A stretch of DNA of 35,950 bases, from assembly GCA_026398065.1 (NCBI GenBank), contig JAPLTR010000259.1:1-35950 (forward strand), in the 5' to 3' direction. The DNA is from Verrucomicrobiota bacterium (GTDB lineage: Bacteria; Verrucomicrobiota; Verrucomicrobiia; Opitutales; Opitutaceae). Positions 15,456 to 35,950 of the stretch are shown here, piece after piece (within the stretch, counting starts at the first letter, position 1; each line of letters begins with the position of its first letter). A program made the position numbers and the translations under genes. The notes beneath the pieces are model-generated. The model made no database searches and was not told the origin of the DNA. It was given only the letters and a program-made list of their open reading frames with translations.

Positions 15456-16868
15456 TCAGGCCGGCTTGGTCGCGATCGTCACGTAGCGCCCGTGGATGTC
15501 GCGGTGCATGCCCTTGCTCCATGAGCCGAGATCGTAGGTGACGTAAATGCGGTTGTCGGTCGGCGTCTCCTCGACGGCCATGTAGTGCGTCGTCATCACC
15601 CCGGAGGTCATCCGGACGACATTGCTCCACGTCTCGCCGTGGTCGCGGCTGATCGCGAGGTAGTTGCCGTTCCAGGGATGGCGCGGATCGACCCAGCAAC
15701 CCTTCTGCGGGATGCGCACCCCAAAGGCCGCGACGAGCAAGCCGCTCCGCAGTTCGATCAGATCGGGGTCGACCACGGCGCCGCGCAGTTCGTCGGGATT
15801 GGCTTCGTCGAGCAGGCCTTTGCGCCCGCGGATGCGGCGAAACATGTCCACCCAGAGTTCCGTGCGGTTGATGTCGAGGTTCGCGAACACGCGCGGGCGC
15901 GCGGGCGTCCATGTCAGGCCGGTGTCGTCGGACACGGCCTCATAGAGCTCGCGGCCGGTGCGCATGAAGCAGATCAGGCGGCCGGCCTTCGGCCCCTGGC
16001 TCACGCGCGCGAGCACGGGCTCGCCCGGGCCTTCGGTGCCCACCGTGGGAGCCACCGCGACGGTCGAGACGAGTTTCCAATGCCGGCCGCGGTCGCTGGA
16101 GCGCGCGAGGAGCACGCGGGACTTGATCATGCGGGGCTCGTAGGTGCTCGGCGTGGAATCGCCCTCCAGCCAGCCGTAGTAGGTCGTGAGCAGGTCGCCG
16201 CTCGGCAGCTCGATGATCCGCCGGTGGAGCCGCTGGGCCTCGTGCGGCCGGCCGCCATCGTCCTTCGAGGGATAGATCGCGCCGGGCAGGTCGAACGGCA
16301 CATCGATCGGCCCCTGCACCGTGCGCCAGTCGTCGGACGACGTGTAGAGCTGGCCCGACGCCTCGCCGGGCTTCGCGCCCTTGGTGATGTAGGTGTCGAG
16401 GGCGAGGATGGTGCCGTCGCGCAACTGCACGATGCCCCCCTCGAGGTTGACCCCGTTCTCGCCGGGCGCGAGCGGCAGGCGCGTCCACGTCTCGCCGCCA
16501 TCGCGCGAGATCACCGTGCCGAGGGCATAGGGATAGTGCATGCGCGGGGTGTCCGCCGGCTTCTCCGGCAACTGCCCCTGCACGAGGATCGCGCCCGACT
16601 TCATGACCAGCATCGAGGGCTGCAACCCGCCCGCGAGCACCAGCCGCTCCGGGGTGAACTCCAGCCGCAGGCGCCCGTCCGCCTCCACCATCACCGGGAG
16701 ATTGGGCACGAACTTCCTCGGCTCCGTCGTCGCGCCCGCGGGCGAGGGCGCCGGTGGTTTGGCCGCGCCCGCCGCGCCCTCCGCCGCCCCGAGGCCGGCG
16801 CCCGCGAGGGGCAGCGCGGCCGAGAGAGTCGCGGTCCGTTTCAGAAAGCTGCGGCGGGTGGTATTCAT
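15456..16868 (-). CDS. Tat-exported sialidase-family BNR-repeat protein
   Basis: 470 residues. It has a twin-arginine signal (TTRRSFLKRTATL) and then a six-bladed propeller with Asp-box (BNR) repeats: SRDGGETW, SSDRGRHW, SDDTGLTW and SRDHGETW. This is the sialidase/neuraminidase superfamily, but most verrucomicrobial members act on other sugars or are not characterised, and I did not identify the full Arg triad. It lies 18 bp behind the TonB-dependent receptor, so the two form one operon in which the receptor may import what this protein releases or binds. The start lacks the usual C/T leader, which fits a downstream operon gene. Confidence 0.85.
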   Translation of the reverse strand: MNTTRRSFLKRTATLSAALPLAGAGLGAAEGAAGAAKPPAPSPAGATTEPRKFVPNLPVMVEADGRLRLEFTPERLVLAGGLQPSMLVMKSGAILVQGQLPEKPADTPRMHYPYALGTVISRDGGETWTRLPLAPGENGVNLEGGIVQLRDGTILALDTYITKGAKPGEASGQLYTSSDDWRTVQGPIDVPFDLPGAIYPSKDDGGRPHEAQRLHRRIIELPSGDLLTTYYGWLEGDSTPSTYEPRMIKSRVLLARSSDRGRHWKLVSTVAVAPTVGTEGPGEPVLARVSQGPKAGRLICFMRTGRELYEAVSDDTGLTWTPARPRVFANLDINRTELWVDMFRRIRGRKGLLDEANPDELRGAVVDPDLIELRSGLLVAAFGVRIPQKGCWVDPRHPWNGNYLAISRDHGETWSNVVRMTSGVMTTHYMAVEETPTDNRIYVTYDLGSWSKGMHRDIHGRYVTIATKPA

Positions 16869-26981: not shown

Positions 26982-28208
26982 TCAGCGCGGGGGGCCGGCC
27001 TCGGCGAGCGCGGCTTTCAGTTCGCGCAGATAGGCCCCTTCGGGATCGCCGCGCGTCGGCATCAGATAACCGCCCTCGCCGATCTCGTTCCACGCGTAGA
27101 GCAGCGCGAGGCGCTCGGCGGTGATTTCGTTGGGATGGGTGTTCATCCACGCGAGGAGGTCGCGCACGTGCTGTCCGAACAGCGCGGGCGTGCGTCCCGT
27201 ATAATAAAAACTTCCGCGCTCGGCGGTTTCCCACGGACGACGGTCCCAGCCGACGATCCCAACGGGAATGTGGCGTTGCTCGGCCGTGCCTTTCCACGTG
27301 ACGCGGTGGTTCTCCATCACCTGCGTGAAGGCAAACTCCTTCCAGCCCTTCATGTAGCCGCCCGCCGCATTGTAGCGGGTGCTCACCGCAAACGGCGGCG
27401 GGAGATTCACGCCGCAGCCGGCAAACGTCACCCCCGGCAATCCCGCGGCCCGCGCCGCCGCCTCGACCGCGGCCATGCCCTCCGGGAGCGCGTCCTTGGG
27501 ATTGAAGAGGATGATCAGGGGCTTGCCGCCCACCGTGACCGCGAGCGGATGGCGCAGGTACGGCAGCCAGTCCTCGGCCGCCTCGCGCCAACGTGCGAGC
27601 GTGGTGAGTTGGTAGGAATCGTGGTTGGCAATGAGGAGGCAGAACTGCAGCCGCTCGCGGTTGGGCGCCGCGAGAAACAGGCGCAGCCCCGTGTGCTTCG
27701 GATCCTCGGCCACGGCCTGCGGCGTCGGCCGGAAATACCAGCAGAAGGCCCAGAACGCGAGGCCGTGGTCCGCCGCGAGGTCGATCTGCCGCCGCATGAT
27801 CTCGGGCTGGTCGGCGCGCCAGCCCCAGAGCGGCTCACGGTCGGCGTACTGCTCGGCCAACGCCTTGGTCAGGTGGGTGGGTGCGCCCTTCGCCCAGGGC
27901 TGCGCCGGATCGCCGTCCGCCTTGTTGCGGCCGGACCAGCCGTCGAAGAAATAGGCCCCCAGTTTTACCGGCGGCTCGGCGGGCGCGGCACGGACCACGC
28001 CCAGCAGTGCGGCGGCGGCGAGCATCAGAGGAAGGCCGCAGGCGATCGCGCCCGAACGGTGGAGAACGGATCTGAACGGATCTGGTTTGCATTGGAGGAG
28101 GGGTAAAATCGGTGGCTCGTGCGGCAGGTCGCTCACCCGCGCCACCCGCGGCACGACAAGCTGTAGCCCACGCCACTCCCATGACGACGCAGATAGGCTC
28201 CGGACCAC
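26982..28208 (-). CDS. GH99-like (WbsX-type) glycosidase-like protein, start region disturbed
   Basis: 408 residues in the longest frame. The body matches glycoside hydrolase family 99-like/WbsX proteins: VKLGAYFFDGWSG, GLAFWAFCWYFRPTP, KPLIILFNPKD, QVMENHRVTW and LLYAWNEIGEGGYLMP. Such proteins are endo-mannosidase relatives linked to glycan processing. The frame is intact to 28208, but the first 60 residues do not look like a signal. A natural start, ATG at 28092, is one frame off because a 10-bp sequence is tandemly duplicated at 28064-28083. With one copy the product would begin MQTRSVLHRS and carry a good signal peptide. As it stands, translation may begin at 28208, 28025 or not at all. 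Confidence 0.75.
   Translation of the reverse strand: MVRSLSASSWEWRGLQLVVPRVARVSDLPHEPPILPLLQCKPDPFRSVLHRSGAIACGLPLMLAAAALLGVVRAAPAEPPVKLGAYFFDGWSGRNKADGDPAQPWAKGAPTHLTKALAEQYADREPLWGWRADQPEIMRRQIDLAADHGLAFWAFCWYFRPTPQAVAEDPKHTGLRLFLAAPNRERLQFCLLIANHDSYQLTTLARWREAAEDWLPYLRHPLAVTVGGKPLIILFNPKDALPEGMAAVEAAARAAGLPGVTFAGCGVNLPPPFAVSTRYNAAGGYMKGWKEFAFTQVMENHRVTWKGTAEQRHIPVGIVGWDRRPWETAERGSFYYTGRTPALFGQHVRDLLAWMNTHPNEITAERLALLYAWNEIGEGGYLMPTRGDPEGAYLRELKAALAEAGPPR
28064..28083. repeat. Perfect 10-bp tandem repeat at a gene start
   Basis: GAACGGATCT occurs twice in direct succession (28064-28073, 28074-28083). It lies between the likely ATG at 28092 and the signal-peptide codons of the GH99-like gene. 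Because ten is not a multiple of three, the copy number decides whether that ATG is in frame. One or four copies would be in frame; the present two are not. Confidence 0.85.
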
Positions 28209-28383
28209 GTCCGGGGCGGAAGTATTAGGGTTCGCGCACGCTCCGGTGAACGCAGCTATCCACCCGCCGCCGGCCCCATAAGGGAGCGACCGCGGTGCCG
28301 TGAGATTCTCTACATTGGGCGCCGTCGCGCGGCTCCGACCCCGCGCCGCCGTATCCGCGTCACCCGCGCGGCGTCATGACGGG

Positions 28384-30462
28384 GTGAACCCCTCGTCGCG
28401 CTTCCTCTGTCTGATCGCCGCCGCCGTCGCCCTGCTGGCCGGTCCCGTTCGCGCCGCCCTTCCCTCCGCCGGCCTCGCCGGACACTGGCGCTTTGACACC
28501 GTGACCGGAGACCGCATCGCCGACCGCTCACCCAGCGGCAATGCCCTCGTGCTGGAGCAGCCCGCCTTTCACGCCGAACTCGGCGCGACGCGCAGCCTGG
28601 ACTGCGATGGCTTCGAGGTCGGCGGCCGGCTCGACGAGCGCACGCCCCTGCAGTTCGCCGAAGGACTGACCCTCGCGATCTGGGTCTACCCCGTCCGAGC
28701 CCGCGGCCACGAGCCGCTCAGTGGGCGGCCCAATCCCACCCCCAGTTGGACCACACCGGTCACCGGACTCTACCTCTCCGATGCGCGCCCGGTCTTCGGG
28801 CTGTTTGGGAACGGCAAGAAACTGCTCCTGGAGGGCCCGGAACTGCCGCTCCGCAGCTGGTCCCTCGTCACCGTCACCCTCGACGGCCGGCAGGCGACGC
28901 TGTGGATCAACGGCGCCAAAGTCGCCGAGGCTGCGCAGGCGTTCGCGGTGCCACCCGCCGGCGGGCAACCCTGGCTGTTCGGCCGCTCACAGAGCCAGTA
29001 TTTTCGCGGCCGGCTCGGCGAAACCCTCCTCTGGTCGCGCGCGCTCACCTCCGCCGAGATCGCCGCCGTGCACACCGAAACGGCCGCCGGCTATCCCCGT
29101 TCCGCCGCCGCCACGCCGTGGCACGACCGCTTCGTCGCGGTCGAGTCACCCGGCACCCGCGCCACCGGCACCTGGCGCTCCCGACCCACGCGCACCCTGG
29201 CGGGTCTCGAAGGCTACACCCACCCCACGCCTCCGCCCACCGACCGCTGGGGCGGTCGCACCGACCGGCCCGCGCTGAAGGCCAGCGGCTTCTTCCGCAC
29301 CGAACAACTCGGCGACCGGTGGTGGCTGGTCACCCCCGAGGGCCATCTCTACTGGAACGTCGGCGTGAACTCCGTCCGCGGGCCCCGCCAGACGCCGCCC
29401 GTCGCGCCCGAAGCCTTCGCCGTCACCGCCACCCGCGAACTGCGCGAACTCGGTTTCAACGGCCTCGGCAACGGCGGTTCGCCCGCGCTCCAGACGACCC
29501 CGCAGGCGCTCCCGTGGTCCGTCCGCCTCAACTTTCTCGCGAGCTTCGCGCAGGCGAACAAGCAGACCTACGCCACCAGCGGGCACACCGGCTTCACCGA
29601 GCAGTGCATCCCCGTGTTTCACCCCGATTTCCCCGCGTGGGCGCGGAAACACGCCGCCGCGCTCGCCGCCACCGTCGACGATCCATCGGTAATTGGCATC
29701 TTCACCGACAACGAACTGCAGTGCCCGATCGACCTGCTCGACCGCCACCTGCGTCTGTCCGCGGAGGATCCCTACCTCCGCCACGGGCGCGCCGCCGCGC
29801 TCGCGTGGCTGGCCGCCCGCGGCCGACCCGCCGATCCGGCACAGCTTACGCAGAAGGACCGCTGCCAGTTCATCGCGCACGTCTTCGCCACCTACACGCA
29901 CCTCGTCCACGACGCCATCCGTGCCGTCGACACCCACCACCTCATCCTCGGCCCCCGCTTCAACGAGCACCGCGGCCAGTTTGAAAACCCGTGGTTCTGG
30001 CCCGCCGTCGGCCCGTGGATCGACGTCGCCGCGGTCAACTACTACGTCCTCTGGGGCCCGCAGACGGAGGACATCCGGGCGTGGAGCGCCGCCCTGCAAC
30101 GGCCCGTGATGCTCACCGAATGGTATTCAAAAGCCCAGGACGCACCCGGCCTCGCCAACACCAACGGCGCCGGCTGGCTCGTCCGCACGCAGACCGACCG
30201 CGCCCGCTACTACCAGCATTTCTCCCTCGCCGCCTTCGAGACGCCCGCGCTGGTCGGCTTTCACTACTTCAAGTACATGGATGACGGCTCCGACTCGGTC
30301 GCCCTCGATTCCGCCGGCGGGGCCAACAAGGGCCTCTACCACGCCGACGGCACCCCGTGGACCGAACTCATCGAGGCCGCCCGCGCCACCAACCGCGCGG
30401 TCTATCCGCTCATCGACCTCTTCGACGCCCGCCGCAAGAGCACGCCCGCCGTGGCACGTTGA
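28384..30462 (+). CDS. Secreted LamG plus clan GH-A glycosidase (agarase-like)
   Basis: 692 residues from GTG 28384, chosen because it gives a compact signal peptide (SSRFLCLIAAAVALLAGPVRA). GTG 28300 is a longer alternative with a weak AGGGAG before it. Residues about 35-235 form a LamG/concanavalin domain (AGHWRFDT, FAEGLTLAIWVYP, LWINGAKVAEA, GETLLWSRALTSAEI). From about 300 comes a clan GH-A type barrel: WWLVTPEGHLYWNVGVNS, acid/base candidate Glu444 in FTDNELQ and nucleophile candidate Glu579 in VMLTEWYSKAQD. The barrel recalls agarase-type families (GH50/GH86-like), but the substrate cannot be read. It converges on the DUF1080 gene with a 115 bp gap. Confidence 0.82.
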   Translation: MNPSSRFLCLIAAAVALLAGPVRAALPSAGLAGHWRFDTVTGDRIADRSPSGNALVLEQPAFHAELGATRSLDCDGFEVGGRLDERTPLQFAEGLTLAIWVYPVRARGHEPLSGRPNPTPSWTTPVTGLYLSDARPVFGLFGNGKKLLLEGPELPLRSWSLVTVTLDGRQATLWINGAKVAEAAQAFAVPPAGGQPWLFGRSQSQYFRGRLGETLLWSRALTSAEIAAVHTETAAGYPRSAAATPWHDRFVAVESPGTRATGTWRSRPTRTLAGLEGYTHPTPPPTDRWGGRTDRPALKASGFFRTEQLGDRWWLVTPEGHLYWNVGVNSVRGPRQTPPVAPEAFAVTATRELRELGFNGLGNGGSPALQTTPQALPWSVRLNFLASFAQANKQTYATSGHTGFTEQCIPVFHPDFPAWARKHAAALAATVDDPSVIGIFTDNELQCPIDLLDRHLRLSAEDPYLRHGRAAALAWLAARGRPADPAQLTQKDRCQFIAHVFATYTHLVHDAIRAVDTHHLILGPRFNEHRGQFENPWFWPAVGPWIDVAAVNYYVLWGPQTEDIRAWSAALQRPVMLTEWYSKAQDAPGLANTNGAGWLVRTQTDRARYYQHFSLAAFETPALVGFHYFKYMDDGSDSVALDSAGGANKGLYHADGTPWTELIEAARATNRAVYPLIDLFDARRKSTPAVAR

Positions 30463-30577: not shown

Positions 30578-31915
30578 TCAGAGCTGCTTGATCAGCACGT
30601 CCTTGAACTCGACCGGGTCGTTGTGCCCGGCGAAGCCGAAGAAGCCGCTCTTCCGGTCCTTGCCCGGGTGCGCCGAGTTGGCCATCACCTTGGTCATGTC
30701 CACGGTGGCAACATCGCCGTCAAGGATGACCGTGCCGTTGAGCTCCACCTTGATGCGCGAGCCCTGGACGGTGACCTCCTCGAAGTTCCACTCGCCGATC
30801 GGGTGCTGGTAACCGCGCGCCGCCGCGATCATGCCGTAGACCGAGCCATGCGCCTGGCGCGGGTCGATCTTCCCCTTCACCTTCTCGTAATTGTCGTCGA
30901 GGATCTGGGATTCGGTCATGCCGTCATAGGCGGTGTTCCCCTTGCCGGGGTAGCGGATCGCGAGGCCGTTGTTGCCGCCGGGCGGCAGCTTGAACATCAC
31001 ACGCGCCTGAAAGTCCGCGAGTTCCTTGTTCCAGTAGATCGTGCCACCCTTCTTCTCCTGCCAGACGATCACACCGTCCTTCACCTTCACTGCGTCGAGC
31101 GGACCGGCCCAGCCGTCCATGTTTTTTCCATTAAAGATCGGCTGGTAGCCCTCGGCGCCCTTCGCCGCGAGGAGGCGTGACGCCTCCTCGGAACCGATTT
31201 CACGAATGGCAATGTTTTTCCACGTCGTGCCGCCGTCATGCGTCTGGAGCTCGATCGGACCGCGCACCGGGATCGGGCGGCGCTGCTGCGCCGGGAGCTT
31301 GGCATCGTAATAGTTTTCAAGGAGCGCGTGGTCGACGACCAGCTTGCCATTGAGCCACACGCTCACGCGGCTGCCGATCATGACGATGCGAAACCGGTTC
31401 CACTGCCCCGCGGGCTGGTCGGCCTTCACGAGCGGGTCGCGGCCGGGCGAGGTCTTCGCATTGTTCCAGAGGCCGCCCGAACCCTTGGCCGAGCCGTTGT
31501 TGTTGGGATCTTTCATCGCCGGGTCCCAGATCTGCACCTGCGGCACGCCGCGCAGATAGATGCCCGAGTCCGTCGCCGGCTTGATCTTCCACTCGGCGAG
31601 CAGCTCGAAATTGCCGTAGTCCTTTTCCGTCGTGAGATAGGCGCCCTTGCCGTCATTGACGAGTTCGCCGCCGACGACGGTCCAGTGGGGTTTGCCGTCG
31701 TCCGTCTTGAGCTTGGCGTTCCACTTGGCGATCAGCGCCGCGCGCTCCGCCTCGGGGAGCTCGAGCAGCTTGCGGTGGTCGTAGGTGTCGCCGCCGCGCC
31801 ACCCGGAGAGATCCTTGCCATTGAACAACGCCGTGAACCCCGCCGGCGGCTCTTCCGCACGCACGTGGCTGAGCACCACCAACGACAACACCAGGGCAAA
31901 TCGCGATAGGGACAT
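30578..31915 (-). CDS. Exported two-domain DUF1080 protein (3-keto-disaccharide hydrolase family)
   Basis: 445 residues. The ATG at 31915 gives a signal peptide (MSLSRFALVLSLVVLSHVRA-EE) and follows CCCTTCT. Two DUF1080 jelly-roll domains follow in tandem: FTALFNGKDLSGW (about 26) to WKNIAIREIG (about 235), and YQPIFNGKNMDGW (about 255) to FKDVLIKQL at the end. Members are related to concanavalin-like lectin folds, and several cleave 3-keto-glycosides or 3-keto-disaccharides after oxidation by Gfo/Idh enzymes. The duplication of the domain is visible in the sequence. It is divergent from the sugar cluster at 32159 and may share operators with it. Confidence 0.9.
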   Translation of the reverse strand: MSLSRFALVLSLVVLSHVRAEEPPAGFTALFNGKDLSGWRGGDTYDHRKLLELPEAERAALIAKWNAKLKTDDGKPHWTVVGGELVNDGKGAYLTTEKDYGNFELLAEWKIKPATDSGIYLRGVPQVQIWDPAMKDPNNNGSAKGSGGLWNNAKTSPGRDPLVKADQPAGQWNRFRIVMIGSRVSVWLNGKLVVDHALLENYYDAKLPAQQRRPIPVRGPIELQTHDGGTTWKNIAIREIGSEEASRLLAAKGAEGYQPIFNGKNMDGWAGPLDAVKVKDGVIVWQEKKGGTIYWNKELADFQARVMFKLPPGGNNGLAIRYPGKGNTAYDGMTESQILDDNYEKVKGKIDPRQAHGSVYGMIAAARGYQHPIGEWNFEEVTVQGSRIKVELNGTVILDGDVATVDMTKVMANSAHPGKDRKSGFFGFAGHNDPVEFKDVLIKQL

Positions 31916-31989
31916 AGAAGGGACCAGCCACCCGGGTTCGCCGGCGGGGCGCCGCACGGGAGTGTGCGGGGTCCGGCGGCAGGAACCCT

Positions 31990-32005
31990 GTAACTGATGG
32001 GTTAC
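31990..32005. promoter_or_regulatory. Operator-like palindrome GTAAC-N6-GTTAC
   Basis: GTAAC (31990-31994), six bases, GTTAC (32001-32005), in the divergent spacer between the DUF1080 gene and the sugar cluster. A second site with the same spacing is at 32139. It lies 75 bp upstream of the DUF1080 start. The layout suits a dimeric LacI- or GntR-type regulator; no regulator gene is in the window. Confidence 0.45.
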
Positions 32006-32138
32006 CCTCCCGGCCCGCCCGCCGCTTTTCAACCGAATTTTTTATTCGCCCCCGCGCCGCCGCTGGCGGACTCTCCCCGCCCTGCGTCCGGCGGGGGCCG
32101 CCCGTGAAAAATTCCCCTTGTCGCCCACCCCTTTGTTA

Positions 32139-32154
32139 ATAACTATCCGGTTAC
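32139..32154. promoter_or_regulatory. Operator-like site ATAAC-N6-GTTAC next to a start codon
   Basis: ATAAC (32139-32143), six bases, GTTAC (32150-32154), ending four bases before the ATG at 32159. It overlaps a second palindrome GTTAATAAC (32135-32143). A protein bound here would cover the start region of the cluster's first gene, so a repressor is plausible. Confidence 0.45.
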
Positions 32155-32158
32155 ATCT

Positions 32159-33217
32159 ATGTCAGCGCCCCTCCCGCTTCAGTCCGCCCGGTCCCCGCTG
32201 CCCTGCCCGCCGGAAGCCATCGACGATTTCATCGCTCGCCCCACCCCGCGCCTCGTCGCGGCGCTCGCGCGCGCGCCCGGGCCCTTTCTCGTGCTCGGCG
32301 CCGGCGGCAAGATCGGGCTCCACCTCGCCATCATGCTCCGCCGCGGCCTCGACCAGCTCGGCCGCACCGACCGCGTCATCGCCGTCTCGCGCTTCAGCAC
32401 CCTGCGGGACCGTGCGGACTTCGACTCCCGCGGCATCGAGTCCGTCGCCTGTGATCTCACCGACCCCGCCGGCCTCGCCGCGCTGCCCGACGCCCCCACC
32501 GTGTTCTTCCTCGCCGGCGTGAAGTTCGGCACCGCCTCGGCCCCCGGCCTCCTCCACGCGCTGAATGTCGAGATGCCGCGCCGCGTCGCCAGCCGCTTCC
32601 GCCATTCGCGCATTGTCGCGTTTTCCTCGGGCTGCGTCTATCCGTTCGTCCCCGTCGACTCCGGCGGCGCCACCGAGCAGACTCCGCCGGAGCCCATCGG
32701 CGACTACGCCGCGTCGTGCCTCGCCCGCGAACAGGCCTTCGCCGCCGCCGCCGCGCAGCAGGGCAATCCCGTCGCCCTCATCCGCCTCAACTACTCCGTC
32801 GAGTTCCGCTACGGCCTCCTGGTCGATATCGCGCAACGCGTCCTCGCCCGCGAGCCCATCGACGTCACCATGGGCCATGTCAACGTCATCTGGCAGACCG
32901 ACGCCGTCGCGCACAGCATCCAGGCCCTCGAAGTCGCCGGGTCGCCCGCCGTCCCGATCAACGTCACGGGTCCCGACACTCTCTCCGTGCGCGACCTTGC
33001 CCACCGCTTCGGCGCGATCGCCGGCGTGCCTGTGACGATCACCGGCACCGAGGCCGGCACCGCCTGGCTCAACAACGCCGCCCGTTCCCATCGGCTCTTC
33101 GGCCCTCCGCTCACCTCCGTCGAGACCATGATGCCCTGGATCGTCGAATGGCTGCGCTCCGGCGGCGAGACCTGGGGCAAACCCACCGGCTTCGAACGCC
33201 GCGACGGCCGCTACTGA
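32159..33217 (+). CDS. NAD-dependent epimerase/dehydratase-like SDR protein lacking the catalytic Lys
   Basis: 352 residues, extended SDR fold. The nucleotide-binding motif is GAGGKIG (47-53, GxxGxxG) after a longer than usual N-terminus. AFSSGCVYPF (154-163) holds the usual Ser. The YxxxK pair is Tyr183 in GDYAASCLARE, but the Lys position is Cys187. Relatives I recall share YAxSC, so this is probably a family trait and not a mutation. Loss of the Lys suggests altered chemistry, cofactor binding only, or a non-redox role. It is the first gene of a four-gene cluster (gap of 28 bp to the next) and starts just after an operator-like site. Confidence 0.83.
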   Translation: MSAPLPLQSARSPLPCPPEAIDDFIARPTPRLVAALARAPGPFLVLGAGGKIGLHLAIMLRRGLDQLGRTDRVIAVSRFSTLRDRADFDSRGIESVACDLTDPAGLAALPDAPTVFFLAGVKFGTASAPGLLHALNVEMPRRVASRFRHSRIVAFSSGCVYPFVPVDSGGATEQTPPEPIGDYAASCLAREQAFAAAAAQQGNPVALIRLNYSVEFRYGLLVDIAQRVLAREPIDVTMGHVNVIWQTDAVAHSIQALEVAGSPAVPINVTGPDTLSVRDLAHRFGAIAGVPVTITGTEAGTAWLNNAARSHRLFGPPLTSVETMMPWIVEWLRSGGETWGKPTGFERRDGRY

Positions 33218-33245
33218 TTTTTCCACGTCCTCCCGTCCCTCCTCA

Positions 33246-34286
33246 ATGCCGCTCGACCTTCGCTCCCACCTGCGCGCCGGCCAGGTCATCCCCGCCCTCC
33301 CGCTCGCCCTCGGTAAAAACCGTCGCTGGGACGAAGCCCGCCAGCGCGCCGTCGTCCGCTACTATGTCGACGCGGGTTCTGGCGGTCTCGCCGTCGGGGT
33401 GCACTCGACGCAGTTCGCCATCCGCGAACCCAAGATCGGCCTGTACGAACCCGTCCTCCGTCTGGCCGCGGAGACCGCCGCCGCGTGGCTCGCCCCGAAG
33501 CCCCGGCCGTTCGTCCTGATCGCCGGCCTCTGCGGCCGCACGCCGCAGGCCCGCGCCGAGGCCCGCACCGCCCGCCGTCTCGGCTACCACGCCGGCCTCC
33601 TCAGCCTCGGTGCCTGGGCCGGCGAGTCGGAAAAGAAGATCCTCGCGCACTGCCGCGCCGTCGCCCGCGAGATCCCGCTCGTCGGTTTCTACCTGCAGAA
33701 CGCCGTCGGCGGCCGCGTTTTCACCTACGATTTCTGGCGCGCTTTCGCCGACATCCCCGAGCTCGTCGCCATCAAGATCGCGCCGTTCAACCGCTACCGC
33801 ACCCTCGACGTTGTGCGCGCCGTCCTCACCTCCGGCCGCGACGACGTCGCGCTCTACACGGGCAACGACGACAACATCCTCGCCGACCTCCTCACGCCCT
33901 TCACCTTCGCCGGCCGCACCCGTCACATCGACGGCGGCCTCCTCGGCCAGTGGGGCGTCTGGACGCAAGCCGCCGTGAAGCTCTTCGCCGACGTGAAGCG
34001 CGCCCGCGCCAGGCCCCGCCTCGACGCCGCCTGGCTCGACCGCAACGCCGCGCTCACCGACATGAACGCCGCCGTCTTCGACGCCGCGAACAACTTCGCC
34101 GGCTGTCTCCCCGGCATCCACGAGGTCCTCCGCCGCCAAGGCATCCTCGCGACCACCGCCTGCCTCGACCCGCACGAAAAACTCTCCCCCGGCCAGGCCG
34201 CCGAGCTCACCCGGGTGGCCAAGGCCTACCCGTGGCTCGTCGATGACGATTTCGTTGCAGTCAACGTCCACCGTTGGCTCGCTTGA
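33246..34286 (+). CDS. Dihydrodipicolinate synthase/N-acetylneuraminate lyase (DapA) family aldolase
   Basis: 346 residues, a TIM barrel of the class I aldolase family. Tyr149 in LVGFYLQNAV and Lys177 in LVAIKIAPFNRY match the catalytic Tyr and Schiff-base Lys and are 28 residues apart, the same spacing as Tyr133/Lys161 in E. coli DapA. Members make or break bonds between pyruvate and aldehydes or sugars. The neighbouring NagA- and NagB-like genes suggest it acts on a sugar acid or amino sugar, but the Gly-rich substrate loop (AGSGGLAVGV) is not diagnostic. It follows CCTCCCGTCCCTCCTCA. It is longer at the C-terminus than DapA (about 290), with an extra helical part. Confidence 0.85.
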   Translation: MPLDLRSHLRAGQVIPALPLALGKNRRWDEARQRAVVRYYVDAGSGGLAVGVHSTQFAIREPKIGLYEPVLRLAAETAAAWLAPKPRPFVLIAGLCGRTPQARAEARTARRLGYHAGLLSLGAWAGESEKKILAHCRAVAREIPLVGFYLQNAVGGRVFTYDFWRAFADIPELVAIKIAPFNRYRTLDVVRAVLTSGRDDVALYTGNDDNILADLLTPFTFAGRTRHIDGGLLGQWGVWTQAAVKLFADVKRARARPRLDAAWLDRNAALTDMNAAVFDAANNFAGCLPGIHEVLRRQGILATTACLDPHEKLSPGQAAELTRVAKAYPWLVDDDFVAVNVHRWLA

Positions 34287-34323
34287 GGGCTCTCCAGCCC
34301 TCTCGTCTTCTTCGTACCCCTGC

Positions 34324-35253
34324 ATGTCCCCCAGCGGCCTTTTCGATTTTCAAGTCAACGGTTTCGGCGGTGTCGACTTCCAGCGCGACGACCTCACGGT
34401 CGCACAGTTGGACCGTGCCGTCGCCGCCCTGCGCCGCCACCGCACGGCGGGCATCCTGACCACTCTCATCACCGACGAGGTCGACGCCCTCGCGCGCCGC
34501 TTCGCTGCGTTCGAAAAGCTCTGCGCCGCCTCCCCGGCCTCCGCGTTGGCGATTCTCGGCTACCATCTCGAGGGCCCGTGGCTCAGCCCCGAGCCCGGCT
34601 ACCGGGGCGCCCACTCGCCCGCTCCGATGCACGCGCCCTCGCTCGCCGAGTGGAACCGACTCCAGTCCGCCGCCAACGGCCGCATCCGCCTCGTCACGCT
34701 CGCGCCCGAATGGCCCGGCAGCGCCGAGGTCATCGCCGCGATCACCCGTTCCGGCGTCCAGGTTTCCCTCGGGCACACAAACGCCACCGAGGCCCAGCTC
34801 GACGAGGCGATCCGCGCCGGCGCGCGGTTCTGCACCCACGTCGGCAATGGCACGCCCCTCGAGCTGCACCGCCACTCCAGCATCGTTCAACGTCTCCTGG
34901 CCCGCGACGAGCTGACCGCCTGCCTCATCCCCGACGGCGTGCACCTGCCACGGTACACGTTGCAGAACTTCTACCGCGCCAAGCCTCCCGGCCGCGTCCT
35001 CTTCACCACCGACGCCATGGCCGGCGCCGGCGCGCCCAACGGACGCTACACCATCGGCCACCACGAGGTGGAGATCGGCGCCGACCGCATCGCCCGCCAG
35101 CCCGGCGGCGCCGGTTTCGCCGGCTCGACGCTCACGCCCGACGAGGGCCTGAAAAACGTGGTGGATTGGCTCGGCATCCCGCCGGCCGCCGCCCATACTC
35201 TGTGGTCCGCTGCTGCCGCCGCCGCCTTCGGCGTCACCCTCCCCCCGCTCTGA
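34324..35253 (+). CDS. NagA-like N-acetylglucosamine-6-phosphate deacetylase lacking the beta-sandwich domain
   Basis: 309 residues against about 380 for NagA. The protein starts directly at the first barrel strand (LFDFQVNGFGGVDFQ, with Gln in place of the HxH motif, as in E. coli NagA). It keeps HLEGPW (Glu83), LGHTNA (His151), THVGN (His172), DGVHLP (His207) and FTTDAM (Asp230), which match the metal ligands and catalytic Asp of NagA. Both halves of the small beta-sandwich domain, normally N- and C-terminal, are missing. It is probably an amidohydrolase acting on an N-acetyl sugar. The ATG follows CGTACCCCTGC; an upstream frame overlaps the DapA-like gene. Confidence 0.83.
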   Translation: MSPSGLFDFQVNGFGGVDFQRDDLTVAQLDRAVAALRRHRTAGILTTLITDEVDALARRFAAFEKLCAASPASALAILGYHLEGPWLSPEPGYRGAHSPAPMHAPSLAEWNRLQSAANGRIRLVTLAPEWPGSAEVIAAITRSGVQVSLGHTNATEAQLDEAIRAGARFCTHVGNGTPLELHRHSSIVQRLLARDELTACLIPDGVHLPRYTLQNFYRAKPPGRVLFTTDAMAGAGAPNGRYTIGHHEVEIGADRIARQPGGAGFAGSTLTPDEGLKNVVDWLGIPPAAAHTLWSAAAAAAFGVTLPPL

Positions 35254-35282
35254 TTTTCCGAACTCCGATCTCCGATTTAGCC

Positions 35283-35950
35283 ATGCCCGTCACCGCTCCG
35301 TATTACTCCACGTCCGGCCGTCTCGCCCTTGAAGTCCACGCCGACCGCCCGGCCCTCGGTCGCGCCGCCGCGCGCGCCGTCGCCGCCCACCTTCACGGCG
35401 TCATCGCCCGGCAGGGCGAGGCCCGCGTGATCTTCGCCTGCGCGCCGTCGCAGGACGAGTTTCTCGCCGCCCTCGTTGACCCCGCCCAGTGCGGGCTCGC
35501 CCTCGACTGGTCGCGCGTCACGGCGTTCCACATGGACGACTACGTCGGCCTGACCGCTGCGCACACCCAGAGTTTCCGCCACTATCTCCAGGAGCACTTC
35601 CTTCGTCATGTGAAGATCGGCCGCTTCCATCCGCTCCCCGCCGAGGAGAAGGACGCCGCCGCGGTCGCCGCCCGCTACTCCGCCCTCCTCCGCGAGAAGC
35701 CGATCGACCTCATCTGCATGGGCATTGGCGAAAACGGCCACATCGCCTTCAACGATCCGCCCGTCGCCGACTTCGCCGACCCGGCGCTCGTGAAGGTGGT
35801 CGAGCTCGACCTCACGTGCCGCCAGCAGCAGGTCAACGACGGCTGCTTCCCCACCCTCGCCGACGTCCCGCTCCACGCCTTCACGCTCACCGTTTCGGTC
35901 TTCCGGCAGGCCCGCCGCCTCAGCATCCACGTCCCCGGCCCCCGCAAGGC
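35283..35950 (+). CDS. NagB-like glucosamine-6-phosphate deaminase family protein, 3' end outside the window
   Basis: 222 residues visible, running off the window edge in frame. The core shows TAFHMDDYVGL (80-90) and ICMGIGENGHIAFNDPP (144-160). Compared with E. coli NagB, Asp141 is Asn151 and Glu148 is Asp158, while His143 is kept (His153). The phosphate loop PTGGTP is replaced by CAPSQDEF (53-60). These changes suggest a related but distinct substrate or mechanism; relatives I recall share them. It is the last visible gene of the cluster, 29 bp after the NagA-like gene. Its true 3' end and any further genes cannot be seen. Confidence 0.87.
   Translation, partial: MPVTAPYYSTSGRLALEVHADRPALGRAAARAVAAHLHGVIARQGEARVIFACAPSQDEFLAALVDPAQCGLALDWSRVTAFHMDDYVGLTAAHTQSFRHYLQEHFLRHVKIGRFHPLPAEEKDAAAVAARYSALLREKPIDLICMGIGENGHIAFNDPPVADFADPALVKVVELDLTCRQQQVNDGCFPTLADVPLHAFTLTVSVFRQARRLSIHVPGPRK

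Follow-up and report, generated by a model that had tools for sequence, protein, structure and literature searches.

A short NagA/NagB-like gene pair joined to a widespread dehydrogenase–aldolase pair in a predicted catabolic operon of an Opitutaceae bacterium

At the end of a 35,950-nucleotide stretch from a Verrucomicrobiota bacterium (Opitutaceae; assembly GCA_026398065.1, contig JAPLTR010000259.1, forward strand; hereafter the window, with which a 57,825-base scaffold of source genome G000 begins), four genes encode an extended short-chain dehydrogenase/reductase (SDR), a DapA-like class I aldolase-like protein (DAP), a short NagA-like deacetylase (NagA') and a NagB-like deaminase (NagB'). 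This four-gene row is a lineage-specific merger of two conserved modules, i.e., SDR–DAP and NagA'–NagB', and not a conserved pathway block. The locus as a whole is read here, with a probability of roughly 0.55, as a catabolic operon for an unusual amino sugar in which both modules take part. The more valuable finding is the SDR–DAP pair itself, which is tightly linked across at least nine phyla.

A first-pass annotation of the window had described the four genes as running in one direction with gaps of 28–37 bp, and all four indeed lie on the + strand, separated by 28, 37 and 29 bp. The window ends inside nagB at an 8-N scaffold gap (Ns at 35951-35958), beyond which nagB is readable again up to a stop near 36088; the idea of a broken nagB was therefore dropped, the interruption being the scaffold gap. 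When the contig was followed past position 35950, as the annotation had proposed, the row continued with the remainder of nagB, a Gfo/Idh oxidoreductase and an AP_endonuc_2/xylose-isomerase-like triosephosphate isomerase (TIM) barrel protein. The four genes are thus predicted to form the front of a six-gene operon (SDR, DAP, NagA', NagB', Gfo/Idh, xylose-isomerase-like; Table 1). The NagA' frame opens at 34243, and the start at 34324 was picked because the same-genus homologue in locus L037 begins there.

DAP orthologues of at least 50% identity were present in 51 of 240 genomes of the same phylum (52 matched, one of them at 34%). Its closest DAP matches among named genomes mark the source organism as Opitutaceae-like. 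The surroundings of DAP were compared over 139 loci, consisting of 52 from this own-phylum sample, 77 of 80 loci from named genomes (the best 80 of at least 597 stretches) and 10 plasmid loci (chosen from 19 plasmid records of at least 51% identity; three more full-length records were E. coli nanA). Three duplicates (L109, L121 and L128) and the 34% match (L088) were left out, and all 139 DAPs differ from one another in sequence. Neighbours were counted from our own picking of open reading frames, motif patterns and tblastn, and phyla were assigned by hand for L090-L169, many of which are metagenome bins. In 126 of the 139 loci, an SDR orthologue shares the strand of DAP and is no more than 1 kb away; the loci come from nine phyla, namely Verrucomicrobiota, Planctomycetota, Bacillota, Pseudomonadota, Actinomycetota, Gemmatimonadota, Acidobacteriota, TA06 and Sumerlaeota, with two unassigned. 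Of the 13 remaining loci, two carry an SDR 2-4 kb off on the other strand, and L122 begins 154 bases before DAP, leaving its upstream side unseen. No DAP relative was found on viral contigs.

The full order SDR–DAP–NagA'–NagB' was rare by comparison, occurring in 3 of the 139 loci (G000 and G160, which belong to the same genus, and L091). NagA' was located within 6 kb of DAP in 7 loci, all of them Opitutaceae-like, and in none of the 11 Planctomycetota loci, so that the conserved co-occurrence of the four genes across Verrucomicrobiota and Planctomycetota, which the first-pass annotation had proposed to check, largely failed to appear. The arrangement varies even among the few loci that hold both modules: in L038 and L039, 0.7-4 kb separates the pairs and NagA' is on the other strand, and in L099 NagA is found ca. 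4 kb downstream. Conversely, three relatives with DAPs that are 76-78% identical (L092, L093 and L113) run SDR–DAP–Gfo/Idh–TIM without NagA' or NagB' in between. Since the four-gene order is rare and such relatives lack the pair, NagA'–NagB' behaves as a cassette that was gained or lost in one lineage. The notion of NagA and NagB as the genes that define the SDR–DAP family pathway was likewise dropped, as they are near DAP in only 7 and 5 of the 139 loci, respectively.

The second module also recurs on its own. A search of the 240 genomes at 1e-20 matched NagA in 149 and NagB in 183, and the scores fall into two groups, with the short NagA and its matching NagB scoring higher and longer, more classical relatives scoring lower. 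With cut-offs set by eye at ca. 118 and ca. 140 bits for the two proteins, at least 41 genomes have NagA' and NagB' no more than 600 bp apart (three of 41 pairs being under the NagA cut-off). Because each of the four proteins has full-length relatives and both halves of the row recur as pairs in many genomes, the observation goes beyond chance. Moreover, a Gfo/Idh protein with the same DTSH motif accompanies both modules, i.e., 6 of 40 NagB'/NagA' loci in a motif scan (three of these proteins join the Gfo/Idh cluster of the operon) and 15 of the 139 DAP loci, which provides a link between the modules that is independent of the merger.

The individual proteins depart from their classical models. 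The SDR has a Cys at the Lys position of the YxxxK motif (Y183-A-A-S-C187), and the absence of the catalytic Lys that had been remarked upon before is family-wide: among 127 sequences, position 187 is Cys in 113, Ala in 6, Thr in 4, Val in 3, Ser in 1 and Lys in none. Tyr183, Lys51 and Lys122 (in a KFGT motif) are invariant (127/127), and Lys122 is proposed, on the basis of this alignment, as the stand-in for the missing Lys. The AlphaFold2 (AF2) model of the SDR (predicted local distance difference test score, pLDDT, of 92.8) shows the Rossmann fold of extended SDRs, and its top match in both fold and sequence (22-23% identity) is TerB, an extended SDR of terfestatin biosynthesis which, unlike the SDRs studied here, keeps the YxxxK Lys.

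DAP is lengthened, as claimed earlier, with 346 aa vs. 292 and 297 aa for DapA and NanA of E. coli, respectively (lengths from coordinates), and the window protein has no Pfam or NCBIfam match at 1e-3. Its AF2 model (pLDDT 92.4) is a TIM barrel that matches NanA, L-2-keto-3-deoxyarabonate dehydratase and dihydrodipicolinate synthase (DHDPS) at a template modelling score of ca. 0.7 and mostly 20-24% identity. A DAP profile run against solved structures gave nothing at 1e-10 and weak DHDPS and NanA matches at looser limits. The profile alignment places Lys177 and Tyr149 of DAP on a Lys and a Tyr of DHDPS that are presumably the Schiff-base Lys and the active-site Tyr. In predicted fold and in this Lys/Tyr pair, DAP therefore resembles the DapA/NanA superfamily (DHDPS, N-acetylneuraminate lyase, L-2-keto-3-deoxyarabonate dehydratase), whereas it differs in its longer chain, its distance from most of its best matches and its VHSTQF-type stretch (V-H-S/T-T-Q-F; H53 in 139/139, T55 in 139/139 and Q56 in 137/139), which replaces the GTTGE-type DapA/NanA motif.

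NagA' has ca. 309 aa vs. 382 aa in E. coli NagA, lacks the N-terminal strands of the beta-sandwich, as had been noted from the translation, and its aligned C-terminus ends early. With the frame taken from 34243, it scored 176.5 bits against TIGR00221, below the cut-off of 225.65. Nevertheless, the metal and substrate residues of NagA (E131, H143, H195, H216, N219, H251 and D273; list from PMC12409433) are kept in 43 of 43 sequences, and Arg227 in 42 of 43. Arg227, Asn219 and His251 have been tied to the substrate or its 6-phosphate (PMC6016474, PMC12409433), and mycobacterial NagA requires an anionic group at C6, accepting N-acetylglucosamine-6-sulfate but not N-acetylglucosamine (GlcNAc). In the M. 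smegmatis NagA structure the conserved Arg points off the ligand, its contact with the phosphate being a proposal by analogy, and mutation of the conserved Arg in M. marinum NagA abolished activity (PMC6016474). NagA' has probably retained anion binding; the missing beta-sandwich says little about its substrate and need not change it.

NagB' has changes at active-site positions. Its full-length homologue in L037 scored 112.4 bits against TIGR00502, below the cut-off of 236.9. The catalytic residues of E. coli NagB are Asp72, Asp141, His143 and Glu148, and the altered deaminase residues reported by the first-pass annotation correspond to Asn for Asp141 and Asp for Glu148, both in 42 of 42 sequences (in the window within an N-G-H-I-A-F-N-D motif), with D72, H143 and K208 likewise kept in all 42. 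Because Asn is also found at position 141 in the solved NagBs 2ri0 and 2bkv (the latter from B. subtilis), the replacement of Asp141 is not unusual by itself. The TGGTP stretch of NagB is its phosphate loop, and Arg172 is likewise part of the phosphate site. In NagB' this loop is partly kept, with T41 in 30/42 and G42 in 28/42 but G43 in 0/42, and with T44S and P45Q in 42/42. The Arg172 column holds no Arg, its exact partner being alignment-dependent (Gln in 42/42 by mafft, Gly in the HMMER alignment of L037). Judging from these residues, NagB' may be where specificity changed. By the same alignments, the oddities noted for the four genes are fixed traits of whole families and not specific to the window.

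The annotation had also seen no kinase gene, and no ROK or PfkB kinase motif was found in frames of at least 200 aa anywhere on the scaffold, the window included, with other kinase types, phosphotransferase system genes and the rest of the genome not searched. On the annotation's suggestion that the substrate may not be phosphorylated, the residues point both ways, as NagA' retains an anion site whereas the phosphate site of NagB' is altered in part. Set against GlcNAc catabolism by E. coli nagBAC, the same two families adjoin here and retain the NagA metal and substrate residues and NagB Asp72, His143 and Lys208. In contrast, NagA' lacks the beta-sandwich, NagB' carries D141N and E148D, has lost G43 and P45 and is changed in the Arg172 column, and the genes are joined to SDR–DAP–Gfo/Idh–TIM on a scaffold without a ROK/PfkB motif. 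In the 40 NagB'/NagA' loci, sugar-kinase motifs were found within four genes of the pair in 3 (ROK in L194, ribokinase-type in L182 and L189), which keeps a phosphorylated route alive. An organic-anion-type transporter of the major facilitator superfamily (MFS) was near the pair in 5 and adjoined it in 4, favoring an acidic substrate; the one of these five transporters that was scanned had the D-galactonate transporter model as its best match (267.8 bits, under the cut-off of 395).

The neighborhoods of SDR–DAP offer a second view of the likely chemistry. Within 6 kb of DAP, the 139 loci contained a TetR regulator in 41, an M20 deacylase in 37, an L-serine dehydratase in 22, an operon-type Gfo/Idh in 15, a TIM protein in 8 and a 2-hydroxyacid-dehydrogenase-type protein in 7, any given partner being missing from most loci. 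By phylum, L-serine dehydratase was located in 11 of the 17 loci from Bacillota, 10 of the 86 from Verrucomicrobiota and 1 of the 5 from Actinomycetota. The Sda proteins of L160 exceed the curated cut-offs for L-serine ammonia-lyase, as does the alpha chain of L047. In Paenibacillus and Cohnella the usual order, when these genes are present, is SDR, DAP, SdaAB, SdaAA, often with M20 (and in L135 also with TIM and Gfo/Idh genes). In Bradyrhizobium, Tistrella and Sulfitobacter (L154, L161, L164, L166, L167, L170 and L171), a GNAT acetyltransferase gene splits the SDR–DAP pair, which sits with a TetR gene in the operon of an ATP-binding cassette (ABC) transporter (NMT1-type by eye), and the substrate of this transporter would name the pathway. 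In loci of Streptomyces, Glaciihabitans, Nitratireductor and Mesobacillus, the neighbors include sugar or tricarboxylate-type transporters, Gfo/Idh and TIM proteins, a mandelate-racemase protein or hydroxyacid dehydrogenases. Several of the inspected loci also have transporters for sugars or sugar acids and genes of dehydratase type nearby. Such contexts look like catabolism of sugar-acid or amino-acid-like compounds and not like lysine synthesis.

Further genes were seen beside the pair in particular lineages. In 12 Paenibacillus and Cohnella loci (L120-L160), a conserved protein of ca. 440 aa with, by eye, a GGDEF-like middle and a helix-turn-helix-like end lies near SDR–DAP; the one that was scanned gave a weak NCBIfam match (22.4 bits), and it is possibly a regulator of the operon. 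In five Opitutaceae-like loci (L041, L043, L045, L097 and L099), two adjoining amidohydrolase-like genes are divergent from SDR–DAP, accompanied in part of these loci by what looks by eye like a DegT-type aminotransferase. Two amidohydrolase-like fragments were scanned; the first matched PF04909 (4.6e-6), and the second gave no match.

From the modules, their gene order, the conserved residues and the predicted folds, all of which are shown here, we infer the following enzyme steps. NagA' would take the N-acetyl group, and NagB' the amino group, off an amino sugar that bears phosphate or carboxylate as an anionic group at C6. SDR and DAP would act as a pair on a sugar acid, with DAP forming a Schiff base via Lys177 and cleaving a C–C bond of a 2-keto-3-deoxy-type acid to release pyruvate. 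The Gfo/Idh and TIM proteins could contribute redox and isomerization steps, and TetR could sense the substrate. The substrate is probably an N-acetylated amino sugar or amino-sugar acid, handled with a 2-keto-3-deoxy-acid-type aldolase. The closest described logic is the ong pathway for oxidized chitin, in which GlcNAc1A is deacetylated and deaminated to 2-keto-3-deoxygluconate (KDG) without phosphorylation, followed by 2-keto-3-deoxy-acid metabolism (PMC9537276); likewise, several Paenibacillus SDR–DAP operons carry M20 and L-serine dehydratase genes. The enzymes differ, however: OngB is a D-aminoacylase, OngC a fold-type III pyridoxal phosphate (PLP) deaminase and KdgK a kinase, as opposed to NagA'/NagB' or M20/SdaAB-SdaAA together with a DapA-type aldolase. 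Of the earlier proposal of a pathway for an unusual amino sugar, what survives is the single gene row, the atypical Nag relatives and the sugar theme, to which the Gfo/Idh and xylose-isomerase-like genes that follow belong; the idea of four genes as one conserved pathway does not.

A number of observations weigh against this amino-sugar reading. The contexts of SDR–DAP vary widely between phyla, including the alphaproteobacterial NMT1-type ABC transporter, and consequently indicate no single substrate; apart from the SDR, no single transporter or partner is common to the loci, with L-serine dehydratase absent within 6 kb in 117 and M20 in 102 of the 139. The loss of the usual catalytic Lys means that a redox role of the SDR is not assured, and DAP lacks the GTTGE-type motif of its superfamily. 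Furthermore, L090 has NagA without NagB, and since NagA'/NagB' are near SDR–DAP in only a few Opitutaceae-like genomes while relatives have an empty slot in their place, the two modules may serve different substrates.

This leads to the plainest alternative, a tentative but live one, in which NagA' and NagB' are a divergent GlcNAc-6-phosphate deacetylase and glucosamine-6-phosphate deaminase that carry out the textbook steps, and SDR–DAP is unrelated to them and shares their operon through local rearrangement. Among the 61 genomes listed with both NagA' and NagB', 33 have no DAP, and the pair is near DAP in only 4 of the other 28; the SDR–DAP operons of relatives in turn do without it. The anion-site Arg persists in NagA' together with every catalytic residue tested, NagB' retains D72, H143 and K208 and often T41 and G42, and the ROK kinase of L194 lies between NagB' and NagA' (best model ROK glucokinase, 173.8 bits, under the cut-off of 260.35). 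However, Gly43, Pro45 and the Arg172 column of NagB' are lost in every sequence with letters there, and the scaffold has no ROK/PfkB motif. The source genome moreover has a more classical-looking NagB (36% identity) on contig C739 and a second NagB' (ca. 50% identity) on contig C817 (24-668, with a Gfo/Idh-type gene, by cluster, on the same contig), so that a plain duplicate would have less purpose. Finally, among the matches listed, NagA' is commoner in genomes with DAP (38/51) than in those without (53/189; Fisher p ~3e-9, shared ancestry not removed).

A broader version of the amino-sugar reading, which we consider unlikely, would make SDR–DAP the core of a largely non-phosphorylated amino-sugar-acid or hexosaminuronate pathway in at least nine phyla, served by interchangeable deacylation and deamination modules. 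These modules would be M20 with L-serine dehydratase in Paenibacillus and some Verrucomicrobiota, and NagA'/NagB' in Opitutaceae, where they would act on a 2-acetamido-2-deoxyuronate with carboxylate replacing phosphate. DAP would then cleave the 2-keto-3-deoxy acid, and the SDR would use the relocated Lys122. Since T41 and G42 are kept in most NagB' sequences, this non-phosphorylated version becomes slightly less likely, and the plain GlcNAc explanation slightly more so.

Equally, a sialic-acid-type pathway, in which DAP would be the N-acetylneuraminate lyase, the SDR the N-acetylmannosamine epimerase and NagA'/NagB' the finishing enzymes, appears very improbable. Although N-acetylneuraminate lyases are among the best solved relatives of DAP in both sequence and fold, identity is ca. 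20-24%, L-2-keto-3-deoxyarabonate dehydratase and DHDPS match nearly equally, and VHSTQF or a similar stretch stands in place of the DapA/NanA motif. In addition, no NanE- or NanK-like gene was noticed around DAP (no model search for either was made), and DAP accompanies L-serine dehydratase and M20 genes in several phyla. A secreted-looking protein encoded at 15456-16868 (-) resembles a BNR-repeat sialidase by eye from its translation, which is relevant only to this alternative. That SDR–DAP is biosynthetic, with DAP condensing pyruvate with an aldehyde and the SDR reducing the product in the manner of DapA and its partner, is hardly credible: DapA-family chemistry is reversible and the nearest solved relative of the SDR, TerB, is a terphenyl-biosynthesis reductase, but inspected loci are often flanked by uptake systems, deaminases, deacylases and catabolic-type regulators, and presence in the phylum is patchy (51/240 genomes).

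Table 1. Genes and conserved residues of the predicted operon and adjoining genes (scaffold positions; the window ends at 35950).
Feature	Position	Strand	Remarks
SDR	32159-33217	+	Extended SDR, Epimerase family, 352 aa; first gene of predicted operon; Pfam PF01370, 1.9e-12
SDR Lys122 in KFGT	32522..32524	+	127/127 SDRs with a residue there (128 aligned); proposed stand-in Lys
SDR Y183-A-A-S-C187	32705..32719	+	Cys in YxxxK Lys position
DAP	33246-34286	+	DapA/NanA-fold class I aldolase-like protein, 346 aa
DAP Tyr149	33690..33692	+	137/139; on DHDPS Tyr in profile alignment
DAP Lys177	33774..33776	+	139/139; on DHDPS Lys in profile alignment
NagA'	34324-35253	+	Short NagA-like deacetylase, barrel only
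NagB'	35283-35950, continuing past the window to ~36088	+	NagB-like isomerizing deaminase; PF01182, 3.2e-17; full-length homologue in L037
NagB' motif N-G-H-I-A-F-N-D	35733..35756	+	Asn for Asp141, Asp for Glu148 (E. coli numbering), His143 kept; 42/42
Gfo/Idh oxidoreductase	36101-37093, outside the window	+	Start resembles signal peptide
AP_endonuc_2/xylose-isomerase-like TIM protein	37115-38005, outside the window	+	
TetR regulator and M20 deacylase genes	38262-40365, outside the window	-	

Downstream of the TetR and M20 genes, the + strand carries a nucleoside-symporter-type MFS gene and then a second Gfo/Idh gene. Directly upstream of the operon and divergent from it lies a 3-keto-disaccharide hydrolase gene (30578-32032, -; PF06439 in two matched stretches). 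Also beside the operon, genes for a WbsX-type protein (26982-28208, -; PF14307) and a LamG-type protein (28300-30462, +; PF13385) are arranged as in a polysaccharide-use region. An Rfam scan of the window gave nothing at the gathering score, and repeats within 32000-35950 were limited to short, imperfect GC-rich matches.

In open-access full text, no assigned substrate was found for the SDR–DAP pair, subscription papers not being covered. One candidate, PMC9608346, contains both 'dihydrodipicolinate synthase family protein' and 'serine ammonia-lyase' and was set aside, as these are drought-response genes with distant, separate locus numbers. Nine of the ten plasmid records name DAP 'dihydrodipicolinate synthase family protein' and the tenth 'hypothetical protein'; the SDR is annotated as 'NAD-dependent epimerase/dehydratase' or 'NAD(P)-dependent oxidoreductase'. 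Such labels say little about the reaction.

In environmental genomes, NagA' and NagB' are easily mistaken for plain GlcNAc metabolism, despite the partly altered phosphate site of NagB'. Assigning a function to either pair would improve many pathway reconstructions, and could show an SDR that works without its usual Lys.

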